Shown: positions 8,929 to 40,402 of the stretch, piece by piece | How positions within the stretch are numbered: the stretch's first letter is position 1 | Layout of the letters: each line of letters opens with the position of its first letter | Assembly: GCA_022566895.1 (NCBI GenBank) | Contig: JADFIA010000019.1 | Location: 1-40,695 of the forward strand | Direction: 5' to 3' | From: Pseudomonadota bacterium | GTDB lineage: Bacteria; Pseudomonadota; Alphaproteobacteria; Sphingomonadales; SMXR01 | Length of the DNA stretch: 40,695 nucleotides | The notes under the pieces: generated by a model | Seen by the model: the letters and a program-made list of their open reading frames with translations, nothing else | Database searches by the model: none | Told to the model about the DNA's origin: nothing | Translations under genes and position numbers: made by a program

Positions 8929-10506
8929 TTAAAATTCGAGCGCCTTGACCTGACGGACGTGGGGCAGTGCTCCGACATCCTTCAGTACTTGTGCCGACAG
9001 TTCCTGGTCGACCGAGATCAGGGCGATTGCCAAACCGCTCTCGCGGTCGCGGCCCAGATTAAACGTCCCGATATTGATCCCGGCATCCCCCAGGATCGTG
9101 CCCAGCCCGCCAATAAAGCCGGGCTTGTCGTCGTTTGCAACAAAAAGCATGTGACCGCCCAACTCGGCCTCGATCTCCATGCCCATAATATTGACGATGC
9201 GCGGCGCGCTGTTGGCGAACAGAGTGCCGGCAATCGTCCGGCGGCGCTTTTCGGTGCGCACTGTAAGCCGAATCAGGGTGTGAAAATCCCCTTTCCGGTC
9301 GTGCACCACCTCGGACACGTCGATATTGCGCTGTTTGGCCACCACCGGCGCGTTGACCATATTCACCGTGTCCATCAGCGGCCGCAGGAGACCCTCGAGG
9401 ACGACCGCCGTCAGGGGCCGCACATTGACCTCGCAGACATGGCCTTCGTATTCGACGATCACCTCCTCGAGCCCGGTCTCGGTCATTTGCCCGGCAAAAC
9501 TGCCGAGTTGCCTGGCCAGCTCCATATAGGGTTTAAGCTTCGGCGCGTCCTCGGCCGAGACCGACGGCATATTGAGGGCGTTGGCGACCGCCCCGGTGAG
9601 CAGGAAGTCGGACATCTGATCCGCCACCTGGATCGCCACATTGACCTGAGCTTCCGTGGTCGCCGCCCCCAGATGCGGCGTCGCGACCAGGTTCGGCGCC
9701 TCGAACAGGGGGTTTTCCGTCGCCGGCTCGACGCTGAACACATCGAGGGCGGCCCCGGCCACCTTGCCGTCTTCGAGAGCCTTGCACAGGGCCCCTTCGT
9801 TGACCAGGCCGCCGCGCGCGCAATTGATGATCCTCACCCCATCCTTCATCTTGGCGATGGCCGCCGCATCGATAATGTTACGGGTCGAATCCGTAAGCGG
9901 CACATGGAGGCTGATAAAGTCCGCCTCGGCAAACAGCTCCCCCAGCTCGACCTTGCGCACGCCCAGATCCGCGGCCCGCTCGAGGGCCAGATAAGGATCG
10001 TAACCGATCACCTTCATGGCCAGTCCCTGGGCCTTTTCGGCCACGATCGAGCCGATATTTCCGCAGCCGATGAGCCCCAAGGTCTTGCCGCTTACTTCGA
10101 CCCCCATGAATTTCGATTTTTCCCATTTGCCCTGGCGGGTCGAGGCGTCGGCCGCCGGGATCGACCGGGCCAGGGCCAGCATCATGGCGATCGTATGCTC
10201 GGCCGTGGTGATCGAATTGCCGAACGGCGTGTTCATGACCACGATGCCCTTTTCGGTCGCCGCATCAACATCGATATTGTCGACCCCGATGCCGGCCCGC
10301 CCGATAACCTTCAGGCGCTCCGCCTTTGCCAGCAGCTTGGCCGTGACTTTGGTCGCCGAACGCACCGCGAGGCCGTCGTAATCGGCGATGATCCGGGCCA
10401 GCCCCGCCTTGTCCAGATCGACCTTCTCGTCAACCTCGACGCCGTTCTGGCGAAACCGTTCGGCGGCCCGCGGGCTCATTGGGTCGGTGATCAGAACCTT
10501 GACCAT
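8929..10506 (-). CDS. serA: D-3-phosphoglycerate dehydrogenase
   Basis: A 525-residue NAD-dependent enzyme that oxidises 3-phosphoglycerate to phosphohydroxypyruvate, the first step of serine synthesis. The N-terminal substrate domain begins MVKVLITDPMSP; the Rossmann motif GLIGCGNIGSIVAEKA is at about 144-159, and the catalytic NCARGGLVNEGAL and HLGAATTEAQ segments follow. The C-terminal half carries the allosteric substrate-binding domain and a final ACT domain (about 452-525, LFVANDDKPGFIGGLGTILG), making this the long type that can be serine-inhibited. An AGGATGG site precedes ATG 10506. It lies 9 bases downstream of serC and forms an operon with it under the serC leader. Confidence 0.97.
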   Translation of the reverse strand: MVKVLITDPMSPRAAERFRQNGVEVDEKVDLDKAGLARIIADYDGLAVRSATKVTAKLLAKAERLKVIGRAGIGVDNIDVDAATEKGIVVMNTPFGNSITTAEHTIAMMLALARSIPAADASTRQGKWEKSKFMGVEVSGKTLGLIGCGNIGSIVAEKAQGLAMKVIGYDPYLALERAADLGVRKVELGELFAEADFISLHVPLTDSTRNIIDAAAIAKMKDGVRIINCARGGLVNEGALCKALEDGKVAGAALDVFSVEPATENPLFEAPNLVATPHLGAATTEAQVNVAIQVADQMSDFLLTGAVANALNMPSVSAEDAPKLKPYMELARQLGSFAGQMTETGLEEVIVEYEGHVCEVNVRPLTAVVLEGLLRPLMDTVNMVNAPVVAKQRNIDVSEVVHDRKGDFHTLIRLTVRTEKRRRTIAGTLFANSAPRIVNIMGMEIEAELGGHMLFVANDDKPGFIGGLGTILGDAGINIGTFNLGRDRESGLAIALISVDQELSAQVLKDVGALPHVRQVKALEF

Positions 10507-10515
10507 TATTCCATC

Positions 10516-11673
10516 CTATGGCTGGTGCCGCGCCTTGATTTCGATAAAAGCCCAGTCGAGCCAGGGGAACAGGGCTTCGAGGTTTTTGCGCTCGACGGTT
10601 GCCCCGGCCCACAGCCTCAAGCCGGCCGGAGCGGTCCGGTAGGCACCGATATCGAAGGCTGCGCCTTCATCCTCCAGGAGCTCCACCAACTCTTTTTGGA
10701 TCGCCTTGCGCCCGGGCTCGTCGAAGCTTTCGAACCATGGATCGACGATCCTAAGGCAAACCGAAGTGGTCGAACGGATGGCCGGATCGGCGGCCAGAAA
10801 TTCGACCCACGGTGTTTTTTCGACCCACTGGGCGATGGCCCGGGCATTGTCGTCGGTGCGGGCGATCATCGCCTGAAGGCCGCCAATCTCGCGGGCCCAG
10901 CCAAGCACGTCCAGGTAATCCTCGACCGCCAGCAGGGACGGCGTATTGATGGTCACGCCATCGAAAATAGCCCGGTTGAGCTTGCCGCCCACGGTCAGCC
11001 TGAACAGCTTCGGCAGCGGCCACGGCGGCGTGTAGCCCTCGAGCCGCTCGACGGCCCGCGGGCCGAGGATCAAAATACCGTGCTGCGCTTCGCCGCCCAG
11101 AACCTTCTGCCAGCTATAAGTGACCACATCGAGCTTGGCCCACGGCAAATCCATGGCAAAAGCGGCCGAGGTGGCATCGCAGATGGTCAGCCCGGCCCGC
11201 GGGTCGGCGATCCACTCGCCATTGGGCACCCGCACGCCCGAAGTGGTGCCATTCCAGGCGAACACCACGTCGTGGGCAAAATCTACCGCCCCGAGGTCTG
11301 GCAGCTGGCCGTAGTCGGCCTCGAAAAGCCGCACATCGTCGAGCTTTAGATGTTCGATAATATCGGTCGCCCAGCCTTTTGAAAAACTTTCCCAGGCCAG
11401 CACGTCGACCGGCCGCGGGCCGAGCATCGACCACAGGGACAACTCAACCGCCCCGGTATCGGAAGCCGGGATGATGCCGATCAAATGCGTCTGCGGCACC
11501 TCGAGAACCTGCCGCGTGCGATCGACCGCTTCTTTCAGCTTGGCCTTGGCCTGGGCTGACCGGTGGGAGCGGCCCAGCAGGGCCTGTTCGAAGATTTGGG
11601 GCGTCCAGCCGGGACGCTTGGGGCACGGGCCTGACGAAAATCGTGGATTTTCCGGCCGGAGGCTCGGTTTCAT
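10516..11673 (-). CDS. serC: Phosphoserine aminotransferase
   Basis: A 385-residue PLP enzyme that converts 3-phosphohydroxypyruvate and glutamate to phosphoserine. The N-terminus [18 protein letters not shown] is typical of the alphaproteobacterial/archaeal-like SerC subgroup; [17 protein letters not shown] holds the PLP-binding lysine. The start at 11673 ([10 protein letters not shown]) is preferred to an in-frame start 27 bases upstream, which would disrupt the conserved leader hairpin. The second enzyme, SerA, is immediately downstream. A conserved leader structure lies directly before the ATG, so expression is probably controlled at the level of the mRNA leader. Confidence 0.95.
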
Positions 11674-15317: not shown

Positions 15318-17264
15318 TTAGCCCTCGGGCTGGGGCTCCGGCCCAAAGTCCTTGCCGCGCTTGCCTTTGTGGCCTTCGGCCACGCCGGCGGCTGGAACCG
15401 AACTGCGGACCTTGCCGCGCTTGGCCGACTGATCGGGATCCTTGTCGGCCTGTTCGCGATCGAGGCTCTTGCCGGCCAGGATGGCATCGATGTCCTCGCC
15501 GGTCAGGGTCTCGTAATCGAGCAGCCCGTTGGCCAGCTTGTGAAGATCATCGATATGGGTGGTGATAATCTCGGTGGCGCGCTTGTAGGCCCGGTCGATG
15601 AATTCGCGAATCTCTGAGTCGATCAGTTTTGCCGTGTCCTCGGAGATATTATGCTGCCGGGTCACCGAATGGCCGAGGAACACTTCGTCCTGGTTATCTT
15701 CGTAGCGCAACGGGCCAAGCTTGTCGGACAGGCCGTATTTGGTGACCATGGTGCGGGCCAGAGCGGTCGCCATCTGGATATCACCGGTCGCCCCCGAGGT
15801 GACCTTGTCATGACCGAACACCACTTCCTCGGCCACCCGGCCGCCCATGGCGATGGTCAAATTGTCATGCATTTTTTCGCGGCTGGTCGAATATTCGTCG
15901 CGCTCGGGCAGACGCATGACCATGCCCAGGGCCCGGCCGCGCGGTATAATCGTTGCCTTGTGGATCGGATCGGCGGCCTTGCAATGGACCGTGACTAGCG
16001 CGTGGCCGGCTTCGTGGAAGGCGGTGTTGCGCTTTTCCTCGTCGCTCATCACCATCGAACGGCGCTCGGGGCCCATCATGACCTTGTCCTTGGCATGTTC
16101 GAACTCGCTCATCGAGACCACCCGCTTGCCCATGCGGGCCGCCAGCAAGGCCGCTTCGTTGATAAGATTGGCCAGATCGGCGCCCGAAAAGCCGGGCGTG
16201 CCGCGGGCCACGACCCGGATATTGACGTCCGCTGCCAGCGGCACTTTGCGGATATGCACTTCGAGAATTTTTTCGCGGCCCAAGATATCCGGCAACGCCA
16301 CTACCACCTGCCGGTCAAAGCGACCGGGGCGCAAAAGCGCCGGGTCCAGAACGTCCGGCCGGTTGGTGGCGGCGATCAGGATCACGCCTTCGTTGGTCTC
16401 GAAGCCGTCCATCTCGACCAGAAGCTGATTTAGGGTTTGCTCGCGTTCGTCATTGCCGCCGCCAAGGCCGGCCCCACGATGGCGGCCAACCGCGTCGATC
16501 TCATCGATAAAGATGATGCAGGGGGCGTTTTTCTTGGCCTGATCGAACATGTCGCGGACCCGGCTGGCGCCAACCCCGACGAACATTTCGACAAAGTCCG
16601 AGCCCGAAATCGTGAAAAACGGCACATCGGCCTCGCCGGCGATGGCGCGGGCCAGAAGAGTCTTGCCGGTGCCCGGTGGGCCGATCAGAAGCGCACCTTT
16701 GGGGATCTTGCCGCCCAGACGCTGGAACTTGTGGGGATCCTTTAGAAAATCGATAATCTCCTCGACTTCTTCCTTGGCTTCATCGATGCCAGCCACATCA
16801 TCGAAGGTGATGCCGCCTTTGGTATCGGTCAAAAGCCGGGCCTTGGATTTGCCGAATCCCAAGGCGCCGCCGCGCCCGCCACCCTGCATCTGGCGCATGA
16901 AAAAGATCCACACGCCGATCAACAAAAGCATCGGGAACCAGGCGATAAAGATGCCCGAAAGAAAGCCGCCGTCCACCGGCACCACCTCGAAGCGCACACC
17001 GCGCTCGCTCAGACGGTCAATGAGGCCGGGATCTTCTGGCATGTAGGTCTTGAAAGGCTGGTTGTTGGTATAAGACCCGGTGATATCGCGGCCCTGCATT
17101 TTGACCTCGCTGATCTCGCCGTTCTCGACCGACAGGAGAAACTCCGAATAGGTAAGATTCGCCGCCCGGTCGGGGTTCGTGCCGCCCTGAAACGCATTAA
17201 AAACGCCGACCAGCAAGAGAATCACCAGAAGCCAGATCAACGCATTTCGACCAAAACTGTTCAC
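15318..17264 (-). CDS. ftsH: ATP-dependent zinc metalloprotease FtsH
   Basis: A 648-residue membrane AAA protease that degrades membrane and regulatory proteins, including RpoH and LpxC in well-studied bacteria. One membrane helix lies at about 8-26, a periplasmic domain follows, and a second helix at 102-124. The AAA module has Walker A GPPGTGKT (195-202), Walker B IIFIDEID (250-257) and the SRH arginines in RPGRFDRQ. The zinc site HEAGH is at 417-421. The tail is charged and ends in a proline-rich segment. I chose GTG 17264 ([11 protein letters not shown]) because AAGGAA lies upstream and the family starts with N.FGRN; the frame stays open to 17438 but that part contains the promoter. Confidence 0.97.
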
Positions 17265-36751: not shown

Positions 36752-37570
36752 ATGGCTCTGCGCTCCGCCCTTATCAACGTGATGGTCTCGGCCGCCTTCA
36801 AGGCAGCCAGAGGGCTTAACCGCGACTTCGGTGAAGTGGAAAACCTCCAGGTGTCGCGCAAAGGCCCGGCCGATTTCGTCTCGACGGCCGATCTGAAGGC
36901 CGAAAAAATCCTCTTTGAACAGCTCTCAAGGGCCCGGCCCGAGTTCGGCTTTTTGATGGAAGAGCGCGGCAGCAAGCCCTCAACCGGCGATACCCAGGGG
37001 CGCTGGATCGTCGATCCCCTGGACGGTACGACCAATTTTCTCCACGGCCTGCCCCACTTCGCGATCTCTATCGCGGCCGAGGAAAGGGGCCAGCTGGTGG
37101 CCGGCATCATTTACGATCCGATTAGGAACGAGATGTTCTGGGCCGATAAGGGACGCGGCGCCTATTTGAATGATCAGCGCCTCAGGGTGGCGGCCCGGCA
37201 CAGCCTCGATGTGGCGCTGCTGGCCACCGGCATCCCGTTCAAAGGGCGCGGCGGTCAGCAGATTTTCGAGGCCGAATTGTCGCATTTCATGGGCCAGGTG
37301 GCGGGCATCCGCCGCTTCGGCTCGGCGGCGCTCGATCTGGCCTACGTGGCGGCCGGTCGCTTCGACGGCTTTTGGGAGCGCAACCTGGCGCCCTGGGACA
37401 TCGCGGCCGGGGTGCTGATGGTCCAGGAGGCCGGCGGCTTTGTGACCGATGTGGGCGGCGGTCCGATCGATATTTCAAGCGGCCGGGTGCTGGCCGCCAA
37501 TGATCGCATGCATGCGCGCATGTTGCGGCTGCTCAAAGAGGCCGAAAAGTCGCTGGCTGATCAAGACTAG
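36752..37570 (+). CDS. suhB: Inositol monophosphatase family protein (SuhB-like)
   Basis: A 272-residue Mg-dependent phosphatase of the IMPase family. Metal-binding motifs are FLMEERGSK (glutamate near 69-71), WIVDPLDGTTNFLHGLPHFA near 87-106 and the C-terminal WDIAAGVLMVQEAGGFVTD near 213-231. It may dephosphorylate inositol phosphates and, as in E. coli SuhB, also assist rRNA transcription; which role applies here is unknown. The gene follows efp by 32 bases in the common alphaproteobacterial efp-suhB order. A palindrome ends the unit at 37612. Confidence 0.94.
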   Translation: MALRSALINVMVSAAFKAARGLNRDFGEVENLQVSRKGPADFVSTADLKAEKILFEQLSRARPEFGFLMEERGSKPSTGDTQGRWIVDPLDGTTNFLHGLPHFAISIAAEERGQLVAGIIYDPIRNEMFWADKGRGAYLNDQRLRVAARHSLDVALLATGIPFKGRGGQQIFEAELSHFMGQVAGIRRFGSAALDLAYVAAGRFDGFWERNLAPWDIAAGVLMVQEAGGFVTDVGGGPIDISSGRVLAANDRMHARMLRLLKEAEKSLADQD

Positions 37571-37611: not shown

Positions 37612-37645
37612 AAAGAGTCCGCTTTTGACCCGAAGCGGACTCTTT
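37612..37645 (+). terminator. Perfect 13-bp palindrome after suhB (repeat family copy A)
   Basis: AAAGAGTCCGCTT (37612-37624) and AAGCGGACTCTTT (37633-37645) are perfect complements with loop TTGACCCG. On the minus strand the stem is followed by a run of seven T bases; on the plus strand by three, so it could act as a two-way terminator. It is also a member of a family found at 38335, 38393 and 40379, all built on GTCCGCTTTTGACCCGAAGC or close variants. Confidence 0.65.
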
Positions 37646-37732
37646 GGATACCTCGCCGACCGCATCACCCGTTGGTTTTTCCTCTTCATGGCATTATCTT
37701 TCTGCGACGGGAGAAACAAAGGTGGGCCGAGC

Positions 37733-38299
37733 ATGAAAAATATCATCGCACTTTTGGCCCTCGCCGTGGGCACGTTGGCGTTGCTTGCTGTCGCCCTCGA
37801 TGCGGACCCCCAGGAGGTGGCCGGTAACCAGCCTAAAGGATACGTTCTAAAACTTGGGGAGGGCGAGGTCTTGAACCCCGACCGCATCATCAAGGCGAGC
37901 CCGGAAAGCGGCACGCAAGGGAGCGTCATGGTGCTGGACCGGGCGCCGGCCGATTTCACCGTCGGCCTGCATTACCATACTGAGGCAGATGAGTTCTTCT
38001 ATATTCTTGCCGGTCGCGGAACGTTCCGGCTCAACGGCGAGGGCATCGCTATCGAGCCGGGTGATATTATATTCGTGCCCGCCGGCCAGGATCACGGATT
38101 TTCGGTCAGCCCGGAGCAGCCTTTGGAGATGCTGGTATTCTTGGACAGACCAGGTCTAGCGCAAGATTTTCGCGAGCTGCATGCGCTGCGTGCGGCCAAC
38201 CCCGGGCCAATGACACTCGATGAGCGCAACGCCATCGCCCGTAAATACGGTACGATCTATAAGGAATTGAGTGGTCCAAGAAGCTTTGGGCCGGAATAA
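37733..38299 (+). CDS. Exported or membrane-anchored cupin-domain protein
   Basis: A 188-residue protein. An N-terminal hydrophobic segment (about 4-22, IIALLALAVGTLALLAVAL) is a signal peptide or anchor. A single cupin barrel follows at about 60-145: motif 1 GLHYHTEADEFFYILAGRG supplies two histidines and a glutamate, and motif 2 PGDIIFVPAGQDHGF supplies the third histidine, so a metal site is complete. Reaction and substrate are unknown; many such proteins are small-molecule sensors or dioxygenase-like enzymes. The frame is open back to 37625 but that would translate the palindrome, so ATG 37733 is chosen; the ribosome site is weak. It lies between palindrome copies A and B, with codons less GC-biased than the genes to the left. 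Confidence 0.8.
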   Translation: MKNIIALLALAVGTLALLAVALDADPQEVAGNQPKGYVLKLGEGEVLNPDRIIKASPESGTQGSVMVLDRAPADFTVGLHYHTEADEFFYILAGRGTFRLNGEGIAIEPGDIIFVPAGQDHGFSVSPEQPLEMLVFLDRPGLAQDFRELHALRAANPGPMTLDERNAIARKYGTIYKELSGPRSFGPE

Positions 38300-38334
38300 G
38301 GGAAGGCGCTAACTAGATGGCAGCCATCCTGAAG

Positions 38335-38358
38335 GTCCGCTTATGGCTAATAGCGGAC
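38335..38358 (+). repeat. Palindrome family copy B
   Basis: GTCCGCT (38335-38341) and AGCGGAC (38352-38358) with a diverged 10-base loop TATGGCTAAT. It follows the cupin gene by about 35 bases. TCTTTTC follows, so it could be a weak terminator for the cupin gene. Confidence 0.7.
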
Positions 38359-38392
38359 TCTTTTCAACACGCACGCACCAGGATCCGAAAGC

Positions 38393-38416
38393 GTCCGCTT
38401 TTGACCCAAAGCGGAC
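38393..38416 (+). repeat. Palindrome family copy C
   Basis: GTCCGCTTT (38393-38401) and AAAGCGGAC (38408-38416), loop TGACCC. Core and loop match copy A except for one base. It sits 28 bases beyond the 3' end of the aspartic protease gene, which is on the minus strand. Confidence 0.75.
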
Positions 38417-38444
38417 ATTGGCGGTTCATTTAAGGAGGCTGGCC

Positions 38445-39350
38445 TTAAGTACGCTCAATATAAACAGTGCGCGCGCCATAGTCGACAATCAGGCGTCCAT
38501 CAAACAAAAGGTCTGATCCAAGGATCATAGCAGGCTCGGCACTCAACCCCAGTGCCTCAAAAATGTGGATGTCGGCTACAGTCACCTGCGGATTTGTCCA
38601 TGTGCGGTCACCAGCCCTCAAGGCTTCCAGTTGTAGGGCAATACCCCGCGCGCCATGGCCCGAAGCTCCTTTGATCGTCTTGCTGGCCTTCTCAAAGGTT
38701 TGGGGCAGATCGATGCCTAAGGCCGCCGCGGCGGCTGGATTGAGAATTGAGCCGCGCGCACCGGTATCCAACAAGGCCGTTATCTTGACCTCGCCAATCA
38801 TGGTATCAAGCATCCAAATACCCCCAGGGTGTTGGCGAATAGGGACGGTGGTGAAATCACCATCGCCAGCGAGTTCCTTGGCGCTGCCACTGCTCAGGAC
38901 CAGGCGGCCCCCGATCGCGTCAATCTCAACCACATATTGCTCAAAAAAATCAGACCCCAAGATGCCGTAAAACGGCTTGCCTGGGATATTCAGAGGTCCC
39001 AAAGCCGGCAACAAGGGTGTTTCATAGGTAATAACACCACCGACCTTAACCGTCATCGGCGCGTACATATCGATTTGCCGCTGGCCCGTTGTGCCATGAA
39101 CTACGGCGCTTTCACCGTCTTCGGGCTTCAAGCCCAGCGCTGCCACCAATGGCTGCGTAATGCCCGTCCTGGATGCCCCTGTATCCAGAATAAAGTCATA
39201 GCTTTCGCCGTTCTCAAAGGTAATCGGCACGCGAAGATGGCCATTTGCATCCAGTTCCAAAGGCAAGGTCAGGGTTTGGGCCGCGGCTGTTTGGCTTGTA
39301 GCAAAAACCGCGATGGCTAAAATCAAACTCCCTATATACTGTCGTGTCAT
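38445..39350 (-). CDS. Secreted two-lobed retropepsin-like aspartic protease
   Basis: A 301-residue protein. A signal peptide (about 1-24, ILAIAVFATSQTAAAQ) is followed by two similar lobes, each with a full catalytic triplet: YDFILDTGASRTGITQ in the first and ITALLDTGARGSILNP in the second. Each lobe also has a later LG(S)D motif (GILGSDFFEQY and ILGSDLLFDGR). Both lobes therefore keep an active-site aspartate, as in pepsin, in a bacterial protein of gag-polyprotein-protease type. It is likely periplasmic; substrate unknown. AAGGA lies before ATG 39350; the frame open to 39515 passes through the promoter and the end of the next gene. Codon use is less GC-biased than in the left part of the window. 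It may be regulated by the LytTR gene upstream. Confidence 0.85.
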   Translation of the reverse strand: MTRQYIGSLILAIAVFATSQTAAAQTLTLPLELDANGHLRVPITFENGESYDFILDTGASRTGITQPLVAALGLKPEDGESAVVHGTTGQRQIDMYAPMTVKVGGVITYETPLLPALGPLNIPGKPFYGILGSDFFEQYVVEIDAIGGRLVLSSGSAKELAGDGDFTTVPIRQHPGGIWMLDTMIGEVKITALLDTGARGSILNPAAAAALGIDLPQTFEKASKTIKGASGHGARGIALQLEALRAGDRTWTNPQVTVADIHIFEALGLSAEPAMILGSDLLFDGRLIVDYGARTVYIERT

Positions 39351-39402
39351 ATTTTTTCCTTCTTGAGTGTCCGGGCCCAAACAGTGAGCCGCGTCGAGAC
39401 TG

Positions 39403-39431
39403 GACATAAGGGGGAGAACGGCTGTTGACAA
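39403..39431 (-). promoter_or_regulatory. Candidate promoter of the aspartic protease gene
   Basis: TTGTCA (39426-39431), 17 bases, TATGTC (39403-39408) on the minus strand; the -35 is 5/6 and the -10 only 3/6. Upstream, near 39460-39480, TTCGTC occurs twice at a 9-base spacing and may be a binding site. Confidence 0.35.
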
Positions 39432-39492
39432 ACCAAATTCGGCGCGATTGCCGGATTGTCGACGAATGGGACGAACGATCGATGAGCGGGTT

Positions 39493-40248
39493 CTAGGCTT
39501 TTGGCAAAAGCCCATCTATTGCGTGCTTGTATGACCGGCTGGATTGAACCTTGGCGCCGCCAGCAAGGGTCATTTCATAAACGCCCCGCCCCTTGGCCAT
39601 AACCGAAACAATCTTATCCTTGTTGACGATTGTGGTGCGATGAATTCTGGCGAAACCGTTCGGTGGCAAGCGATGTTCAAAGTTCGACAGCGTTTGCTTT
39701 TTGAGATAGGTACCTTTGTCTGTCGTAAGCTCAATATAATCGCCATTCGACTGCACATACACGAGGTCCGCAATTTCAAGCGTTCTAACTTCGCCCCGGA
39801 CTTCAACTGTTATACGGCGCTCGTTTCCTTGTTTCCCATCACCCGTTTGAGCGGCATGGGACGACCCCGCGCGCCGCAAATATAACAGGCTCCAGACAAA
39901 GTAGAATAACCCGAAATACAAGGTATCAGTGGAGAGAATTTCGAAAGGCATTTGAGCGACCGGACGGCCCAAAAGTGAGAAGAGCACGGGGTTCAACATG
40001 GCCGCCGTCAGCAATGCCGCTAGACCGCTGGCCAATCCGACCAGTAGAATTGGATGGCCAAATCGGCGAAAAGCCCGCTGCCCGTAGAAGAGGGTCATAG
40101 AGCTTGAAAGCAAAAACCCAACCAACAGAAAATACAAATTGCGGATCAGCGCAATTTCCCAGTGCCCATAGGAAAGGCCGTAAAGGAACAGCATCGAGGC
40201 TGCTCCGGTCCAGAAAACAAGCTGGAATAAAAATAATGATCTGGTCAT
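39493..40248 (-). CDS. Membrane-bound LytTR-domain transcription regulator
   Basis: A 251-residue protein. Four probable membrane helices lie in the first 135 residues (about 8-25, 34-52, 66-90 and 108-126). A linker (RRAGSSHAAQTGDGKQGNER) leads to a LytTR DNA-binding domain at about 150-250, with DLVYVQSNGDYIELTTDKG, the KKQTLSNFEHRLPPNGFARI core, HRTTIVNKDKI and a final SRSYKHAIDGLL. There is no receiver domain, so the membrane part may be the sensor or a partner-binding anchor. Several LytTR membrane regulators act with a small membrane inhibitor, but none is visible here. ATG 40248 has no ribosome site and a -10 box ends ten bases away, so translation may be leaderless. It lies upstream of and on the same strand as the protease gene. 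Confidence 0.88.
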   Translation of the reverse strand: MTRSLFLFQLVFWTGAASMLFLYGLSYGHWEIALIRNLYFLLVGFLLSSSMTLFYGQRAFRRFGHPILLVGLASGLAALLTAAMLNPVLFSLLGRPVAQMPFEILSTDTLYFGLFYFVWSLLYLRRAGSSHAAQTGDGKQGNERRITVEVRGEVRTLEIADLVYVQSNGDYIELTTDKGTYLKKQTLSNFEHRLPPNGFARIHRTTIVNKDKIVSVMAKGRGVYEMTLAGGAKVQSSRSYKHAIDGLLPKA

Positions 40249-40257
40249 GGGTCGATC

Positions 40258-40296
40258 ATTATAAAGACCGCGGTGGTACTGACAATGGCGCTGTCA
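40258..40296 (-). promoter_or_regulatory. LytTR gene promoter with overlapping inverted repeat
   Basis: On the minus strand TTGTCA (40280-40285), 16 bases, then a perfect TATAAT (40258-40263). The predicted start near 40251 is only about 3 bases before ATG 40248, which suggests a leaderless mRNA. TGACA (40280-40284) and TGTCA (40292-40296), 7 bases apart, form an inverted repeat overlapping the -35, a repressor or autoregulation position. CAGTT also occurs twice farther upstream (17-base period), not the usual 21-base spacing of LytTR sites. Confidence 0.55.
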
Positions 40297-40378
40297 CGTT
40301 AACTGGGCGATATCCGAAACTGATTGGCTTTGGTGATCAAATGCCTTGAGTACCTAAGCTGCAACCCGTAGCTCCAAC

Positions 40379-40402
40379 GTCCGTTTTTGACCCGAAGGGG
40401 GC
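40379..40402 (+). repeat. Palindrome family copy D (degenerate)
   Basis: GTCCGTTTTTGACCCGAAGG and the following GGGC (40379-40402) match copy A closely on the left and in the loop (TTGACCCGAAG), but the right arm has lost its match (GGGGGC instead of GCGGAC). It lies between the LytTR and rhodanese genes, 35 bases from the end of the latter. Confidence 0.6.

Follow-up and report, generated by a model that had tools for sequence, protein, structure and literature searches.

Palindromic sites at gene-block borders in a Sphingomonadales genome and on enterobacterial plasmids: probable core sites of site-specific recombination

What kind of element are the four short palindromes that lie within 2.8 kb near the right-hand end of contig JADFIA010000019.1 (GenBank assembly GCA_022566895.1; Alphaproteobacteria, Sphingomonadales, SMXR01), beside a cupin, a protease and a LytTR gene? 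The original prediction, made from the letters of positions 1 to 40,695 of this contig (the whole stretch of 40,695 nucleotides, hereafter the window), favoured a mobile REP-like (repetitive extragenic palindromic) or protein-recognised element over simple terminators. We found that the palindromes belong to a family of many intergenic copies whose sequence is shared across taxa, that homologous blocks end on these copies, that the switch from like to unlike sequence falls in or beside their centre, and that an intact integrase gene lies between two of them. The observation made in the window is real and genome-wide, and the palindromes are likely to be core sites for recombination of the tyrosine recombinase type, with an 11-6-11 geometry.

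Copies in the window, the genome and beyond

All four palindromes, predicted at 37612, 38335, 38393 and 40379, are real. Site 1 (37612-37645, forward strand like the other three) reads AAAGA-GTCCGCTTT-TGACCC-GAAGCGGAC-TCTTT, where the extended palindrome begins five bases outside the 24-bp core (37617-37640). Site 2 (38335-38358) has perfect arms around the centre TGGCTA (GTCCGCT TATGGCTAAT AGCGGAC) and forms the first half of a two-site cluster with site 3 (38393-38416; centre TGACCC), which follows 58 bp after it and is a direct repeat of site 1. Site 4 (40379-40402) is a decayed copy with the centre TGACCC, the left arm GTCCGTTTT and the right arm GAAGGGGGC. A search of the window with GTCCGCTTTTGACCC gave exact matches at 37617-37631 (in site 1, an exact-arm copy) and 38393-38407 and a match with one mismatch at 40379-40393. 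Six matches with at most three mismatches were found against 1.69 expected; the remaining three, with three mismatches each, were at chance level, in agreement with the claim that the window holds no further copy. The claim that both stem and loop are conserved held in part: the stem is intact in three of the four copies, the right arm of that at 40379 being damaged, and the loop TTGACCC is present in three, that at 38335 carrying TGGCTA, so that the two trios differ.

Genome-wide, 82 exact-arm copies (GTCCGCT and AGCGGAC at fitting distance) were detected in the 2.15-Mb assembly (85.88% complete) versus one in the reversed control, and the family is thus not limited to the four copies of the window. 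All those listed were 24 bp long. Conservation of the loop was borne out by half, as two centres recur. When near-palindromes were scored on both strands with at most three mismatches, the TGACCC type was found 45 times in forward and 33 times in reverse orientation and the TGGCTA type 46 and 36 times, with no match in the controls; among 101 copies from retrieved stretches, 53 had TGGCTA and 39 TGACCC. Each site consists of two inverted 11-bp arms, most commonly ATGTCCGCTTT and AAAGCGGACAT, around an asymmetric 6-bp centre, for which TGACCC, TGGCTA, TGGCAC, GAGCGA and others were seen. Read on the opposite strand, the TGACCC type looks similar to the TGGCTA type, and the two kinds pair at a spacing of 46, 57 or 58 bp, as in the window, often with AAT outside and TCTTTT/AAAAGA inside the pair. 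Many sites come after gene ends, and none of the 10 and 13 best copies in two sets lay inside a coding sequence, where the coding fractions were 0.81 and 0.78.

Palindromes also come in threes spaced about 45 bp apart, or in fours within 163 bp (loci L092, L112, L117, L130, L138, L163, L170, L176 and L186). The centres in these clusters follow a fixed order, in which TGGC.. leads, CGGGGGT/ACCCCCG stands in the middle and TGACCC comes last.

Among 60 genomes, the exact TGACCC form was present in the own genome, in four of the seven other family members and in none of the 52 others of the order; at class level it was present in 9 of 385 genomes. A scan of named genomes returned at least 110 stretches, which among the matches listed were mostly from Alphaproteobacteria, plus Dyella, Buttiauxella, Nitrospina and others; single matches such as Paenibacillus may be due to chance or contamination. 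With at most one mismatch per arm, 289 copies were counted in 124 loci, most of which had been retrieved because they bear a site, versus 3 in shuffled sequence. A joined three-palindrome query matched 1206 plasmid records, mainly of Klebsiella, Enterobacter and Pantoea, and 991 of 5426 Escherichia coli genomes (1076 chromosomal and 15 plasmid places). In seven loci read from these matches the centres were mostly TGGCAC and GAGCGA. The copy in E. coli DSM 30083 (L234, around 3004) adjoins prophage-type genes (DUF977, YdaT, Cro/CI), and the spread of the E. coli copy may follow prophages.

These counts bear on both halves of the original prediction. A protein-recognised element is supported over a simple terminator by the genome-wide copies, the two recurring centres and the sequence common to Proteobacteria. 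Site 1 does score as a terminator-like hairpin on the minus strand, and the position of many sites after gene ends would suit terminators or insulators conserved for such a role alone; the terminator-like matches numbered six versus 5.5 in shuffles, and the role needs neither one exact arm sequence over several classes nor breakpoints in the loop, which makes this explanation very unlikely. As a side role, termination may still apply to the copy at 37612, and hairpins of the family might additionally end transcription. The only match to a named RNA family, Thr_leader, scored 23 bits where the gathering score is 55, and was taken as chance.

The mobile REP-like half fared less well. REP and REPIN elements spread by a REP-associated Y1 transposase (RAYT) resemble the present sites as short intergenic palindromes in inverted pairs, here 46-58 bp apart. 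REP families, however, are usually narrow, and the site sequence is common to several classes; whole gene blocks change at the sites (see below); and a search for the transposase domain PF01797, positive in 5 of 14 control genomes, gave no match in the own genome, an absence that is not final at the completeness of this assembly. Nor was a REP tag of the GTAG or CGTC type, as named in the title of PMC3733652, found at the site end, where the commonest flanks were AAT or AAAGA/AAAGG. We regard a REP origin as highly improbable.

Gene-block ends and the point of the switch

Homologous blocks stop on the palindromes much more frequently than expected by chance. In six 50-kb stretches of Pantoea agglomerans plasmids, selected for their link to a site-bearing region, 31 of the 39 internal ends of homologous blocks fell on sites in both partners, whereas shifting the sites at random 2000 times put on average 0.001 ends on sites and never more than 1. 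A stretch chosen blindly by round coordinates had 8 of 22 block ends on sites (shifts: mean 0.0015, maximum 1). With one duplicate pair excluded, the counts were 35 of 151 within the own genome (mean 0.08, maximum 2) and 39 of 227 in the remaining pairs (mean 0.26, maximum 5). Individual cases show what changes at these ends. Between corresponding sites, a gene for a LysE protein in one plasmid occupies the place that a NUDIX gene has in another (L242 28671-29422 versus L244 20531-21151), and six annotated genes form a block that is found between sites in one plasmid and is missing from another (L242 23646-29422; L243 26826). When plasmids were searched with a Pantoea stretch, alignments started or stopped on palindromes, and the match H97 aligned query positions 9056-11052 exactly from palindrome to palindrome. 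In the own genome, related genes, for example those of the family that starts with MGQLFEELKRRNVVRVGIAY, resemble each other as far as the palindrome, where the resemblance stops.

We then located the switch within the site, using pairs in which at least 17 of 20 bases of the left flank and at most 13 of 20 of the right flank were equal; other pairs were dropped. Among the 29 distinct junction pairs obtained, columns 2-9 of the left arm held no mismatch and one pair differed at column 1, the 6-bp centre (columns 10-15) was identical in 25, where random site pairs would agree at a rate of about 0.09, and columns 16-23 of the right arm held 23 mismatches. Differences thus started mostly at column 16 or later, and the symmetry of the site confines the switch, from either side, to the centre or the edges of the centre. 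Read from the sequences, such a pattern would be expected after exchange by a tyrosine recombinase whose overlap is 6 bp. In one pair of the own genome (L012 1501 and L072 256), flanks 97% identical up to the palindrome are followed by the centres TGACCC and GGGTCA, as if one site had recombined in the opposite direction.

The features known for core sites of tyrosine recombinases are therefore found here: a centre within the 6-8 bp range, flanked by arms of about 11 bp that are inverted copies of each other, and partners with equal centres that switch within the centre at most junctions. Two sites of equal centre would exchange partners at the centre, so that in each new site the left arm would stay with its left neighbour and the right arm with its right neighbour. 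The genes between sites would become modules that can be excised, inserted or swapped, much like the dif modules of Acinetobacter, and paired sites with unlike centres might allow swaps by double crossover.

Could such junctions arise passively, with palindromes stalling replication or forming hairpins and template switching joining unrelated sequence without any dedicated enzyme? Replication is known to run into trouble at perfect hairpins, and the sites are intergenic, where breaks are tolerated. Passive recombination would not be expected, however, to produce near-identical sequence over alpha- and gammaproteobacteria with recurring centres, nor the agreement of centres combined with a mid-site switch, and we consider it quite unlikely. 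The site-specific reading implies instead that a dedicated enzyme presumably performs the exchange. Serine recombinases named by eye near two arrays (L073 160-888 and L069 5029-5733) were set aside as a weaker alternative because their overlap of 2 bp would not require an equal 6-bp centre.

Several gene families were noticed in or near palindrome-bounded intervals. At least nine diverged copies of a family starting with MGxLFEELKRRNVVRVGIAY occupy such intervals in the own genome (L065 2215-4401, L067 3077-4984, L068 2236-4320, L071 6231-8045, two in L073, L074 5633-7399, L081 and L082), and the window holds a related gene on the minus strand, at about 880-1950, with no sites close to it. A metagenome-assembled genome of the Hyphomicrobiales has three related ABC-type substrate-binding genes, named by eye, in 1.1-kb units with palindromes at both ends (L091 3144-4276, L091 5195-6289 and L092 3617-4739). 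Two IS1595-like transposase genes of the own genome, likewise named by eye (L075 415-1281 and one in L020), have their start a few hundred bases away from a TGACCC site, and the sequence directly after the site is similar in both. As these genes adjoin sites, we considered the palindromes as ends of IS1595-family elements and dropped the idea, the palindromes adjoining many unrelated genes.

A candidate integrase

A candidate for the enzyme was found on the Pantoea plasmids, where a 200-aa 'site-specific integrase' is encoded inside a palindrome-bounded YafY-VOC-int block. Its homologue in the own genome (C24:16282-16905; 58% identical to the Pantoea protein) lies between palindromes at 16193 and 16961. 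Eight relatives gave far weaker matches (best E 5.8e-8; own genome 2.2e-74), among them a 29-residue remnant with 72% identity. The catalytic residues R59, K87, H156, R159, H182 and Y191 are invariant in all 34 aligned members. An AlphaFold2 model (mean predicted local distance difference test score, pLDDT, 85.7) had XerA, Cre and XerH as its best matches in the PDB and also matched the integron integrase 2a3v; at the sequence level, the protein matches the catalytic parts of XerC/XerA and FimB-type invertases far below the family cut-offs. A near-perfect site was found within 300 bp of 7 of the 19 integrase genes in palindrome-bearing genomes versus 0 of 74 control windows, and two looser settings gave 9 of 19 versus 2 of 74 and 14 of 19 versus 8 of 74. 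The association of site and integrase across genomes is modest. That this integrase of about 200 aa, the size of FimB, acts on the sites is plausible, with chances that we judge to be about even.

A number of results weigh against this picture, both for the sites and for the enzyme. Block ends away from sites amount to 8 of 39 in Pantoea, 14 of 22 in the blindly chosen stretch and 116 of 151 in the own genome, and in E. coli SE11 and in a Klebsiella plasmid many of the alignments stop 36-48 bp short of or beyond the nearest site; the E. coli and Klebsiella cases are mixed, as some alignments do begin on a site. Centres are unlike at 4 of the 29 junctions, the junction pairs share events and are hence not independent, and strand exchange at the sites is deduced from sequence junctions. 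The integrase is present (E ≤ 1e-25) in 13 of 49 palindrome-bearing genomes, many of them metagenome-assembled and of unstated completeness, versus 69 of 398 Pseudomonadota at large. Thirty integrase loci of the phylum sample hold 35 loose sites versus 16 in shuffled sequence; many genes of the integrase family lack such a site in their vicinity, and the GTCCGC site is not general in this sample. The integrase may thus be one more passenger gene.

Other genes of the integrase family (L259-L287) often have a different near-perfect palindrome beside them, such as GGGCAGAGC-N6-GCTCTGCCC and TAGCGACGGTC-N7-GACCGTCGCTA, at a distance of about 35-40 bp upstream or 10-25 bp downstream. Palindromes with at least 10 of 11 pairs were found at 14 of 60 flanks, the own locus L258 included, versus 1 of 300 shuffles. 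A part of these palindromes may be terminators, and others could be the own sites of those integrases; the present site family may be one of several, as other integrase members apparently have other palindromes.

The window genes, related systems and meaning

Within the window, we propose as a gene module the cupin-domain gene (37733-38299, forward strand; Pfam Cupin_2, E = 1.6e-15) between site 1 and the pair at 38335/38393. Sites 1 and 3 are equal in centre and direction and 776 bp apart, with the cupin gene and site 2 inside, and from these direct repeats we predict that the gene is excised in a circle of 776 bp. The next interval, bounded by sites 3 and 4, is shared by a two-domain retroviral-type aspartyl protease gene (38445-39350, minus strand; Pfam Asp_protease_2, E = 2.5e-25) and a LytTR DNA-binding regulator gene (39493-40248, minus strand; Pfam LytTR, E = 7.3e-22). 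Homologues of these three genes were not found among the loci retrieved for the analysis. The conserved neighbour of site 1 is an inositol monophosphatase gene that follows EF-P (36752-37570, forward strand; Pfam E = 4.1e-67); its homologue is present in all eight relatives, with no site in about 1.5 kb on each side of the match. The window stops 293 bases beyond site 4, and numerous other copies also lie close to contig ends, as would be expected where strains differ.

The nearest described system is that of the plasmid dif (pdif) modules of Acinetobacter. Excerpts of PMC13141974 describe them as accessory genes between two-armed sites with a 6-bp spacer, exchanged between identical or near-identical spacers, with replacement of single modules and junctions within the site, all of which has its counterpart at the present sites. 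This shared geometry and equal-centre rule would suit the host XerC/XerD pair as the enzyme in place of the small integrase, as would the lack of an integrase copy in 36 of the 49 palindrome-bearing genomes searched. XerC and XerD arms, however, differ from each other, whereas the present site has one arm sequence in inverted copies, and these arms match only 3-5 of 11 positions of four dif arm sequences. The use of the sites by XerC/XerD therefore seems unlikely. The present sites, which work alike but differ in their arms, also differ from dif modules in that two to four of them, each with another centre, often stand together, and in a range that reaches the chromosomes and megaplasmids of alpha- and gammaproteobacteria.

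Integron cassettes are likewise mostly single genes between hairpin sites, arranged in arrays and served by an integrase of the same superfamily. The integrase of the own genome scored 15.6 bits on the integron model TIGR02249 against a cut-off of 265, and it lies between two sites itself, unlike an integron integrase at the platform end. The boxes of attC sites are RYYYAAC/GTTRRRY; by eye, no GTT/AAC boxes of this kind were present in the listed copies with their GTCCGCT/AGCGGAC arms. The FimB/FimE invertases are similar in size (about 200 aa, mainly the catalytic domain), and the Pantoea integrase has a weak match to the FimB/FimE-type model NF007371 (E = 1.7e-8). In the known case FimB/FimE invert one promoter segment, whereas gene blocks move at the present sites.

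No earlier description of the site was found in the literature searched, from which most subscription papers and all preprints were outside the scope, so that one may exist. A search by site sequence gave nothing relevant and one primer match in a Brucella paper; the excerpts of PMC5082802 concern palindromes other than the present site, and those of PMC5817063 rep-PCR only. We tentatively suggest, at somewhat below even confidence, an undescribed and Proteobacteria-wide form of module exchange in which a solo tyrosine recombinase of about 200 aa would act on palindromic 11-6-11 sites whose interchangeable centres would decide the partners. Where two to four sites of different centre cluster at a module border, two crossovers at unlike pairs would permit a swap, a natural recombinase-mediated cassette exchange, and the recombinase would travel in a module of its own.

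If this is true, a good share of the gene differences between strains in organisms such as Pantoea would stem from site-specific swapping that is invisible to annotation, as would some of the differences found on enterobacterial plasmids and among environmental alphaproteobacteria. The palindrome would be a readable mark for the edges of mobile genes and would account for clusters in which single accessory genes stand together and transposases are absent. A small recombinase whose centres can be programmed could also serve as a tool. Even with another enzyme, the sites are landmarks of breakpoints that can be used now.

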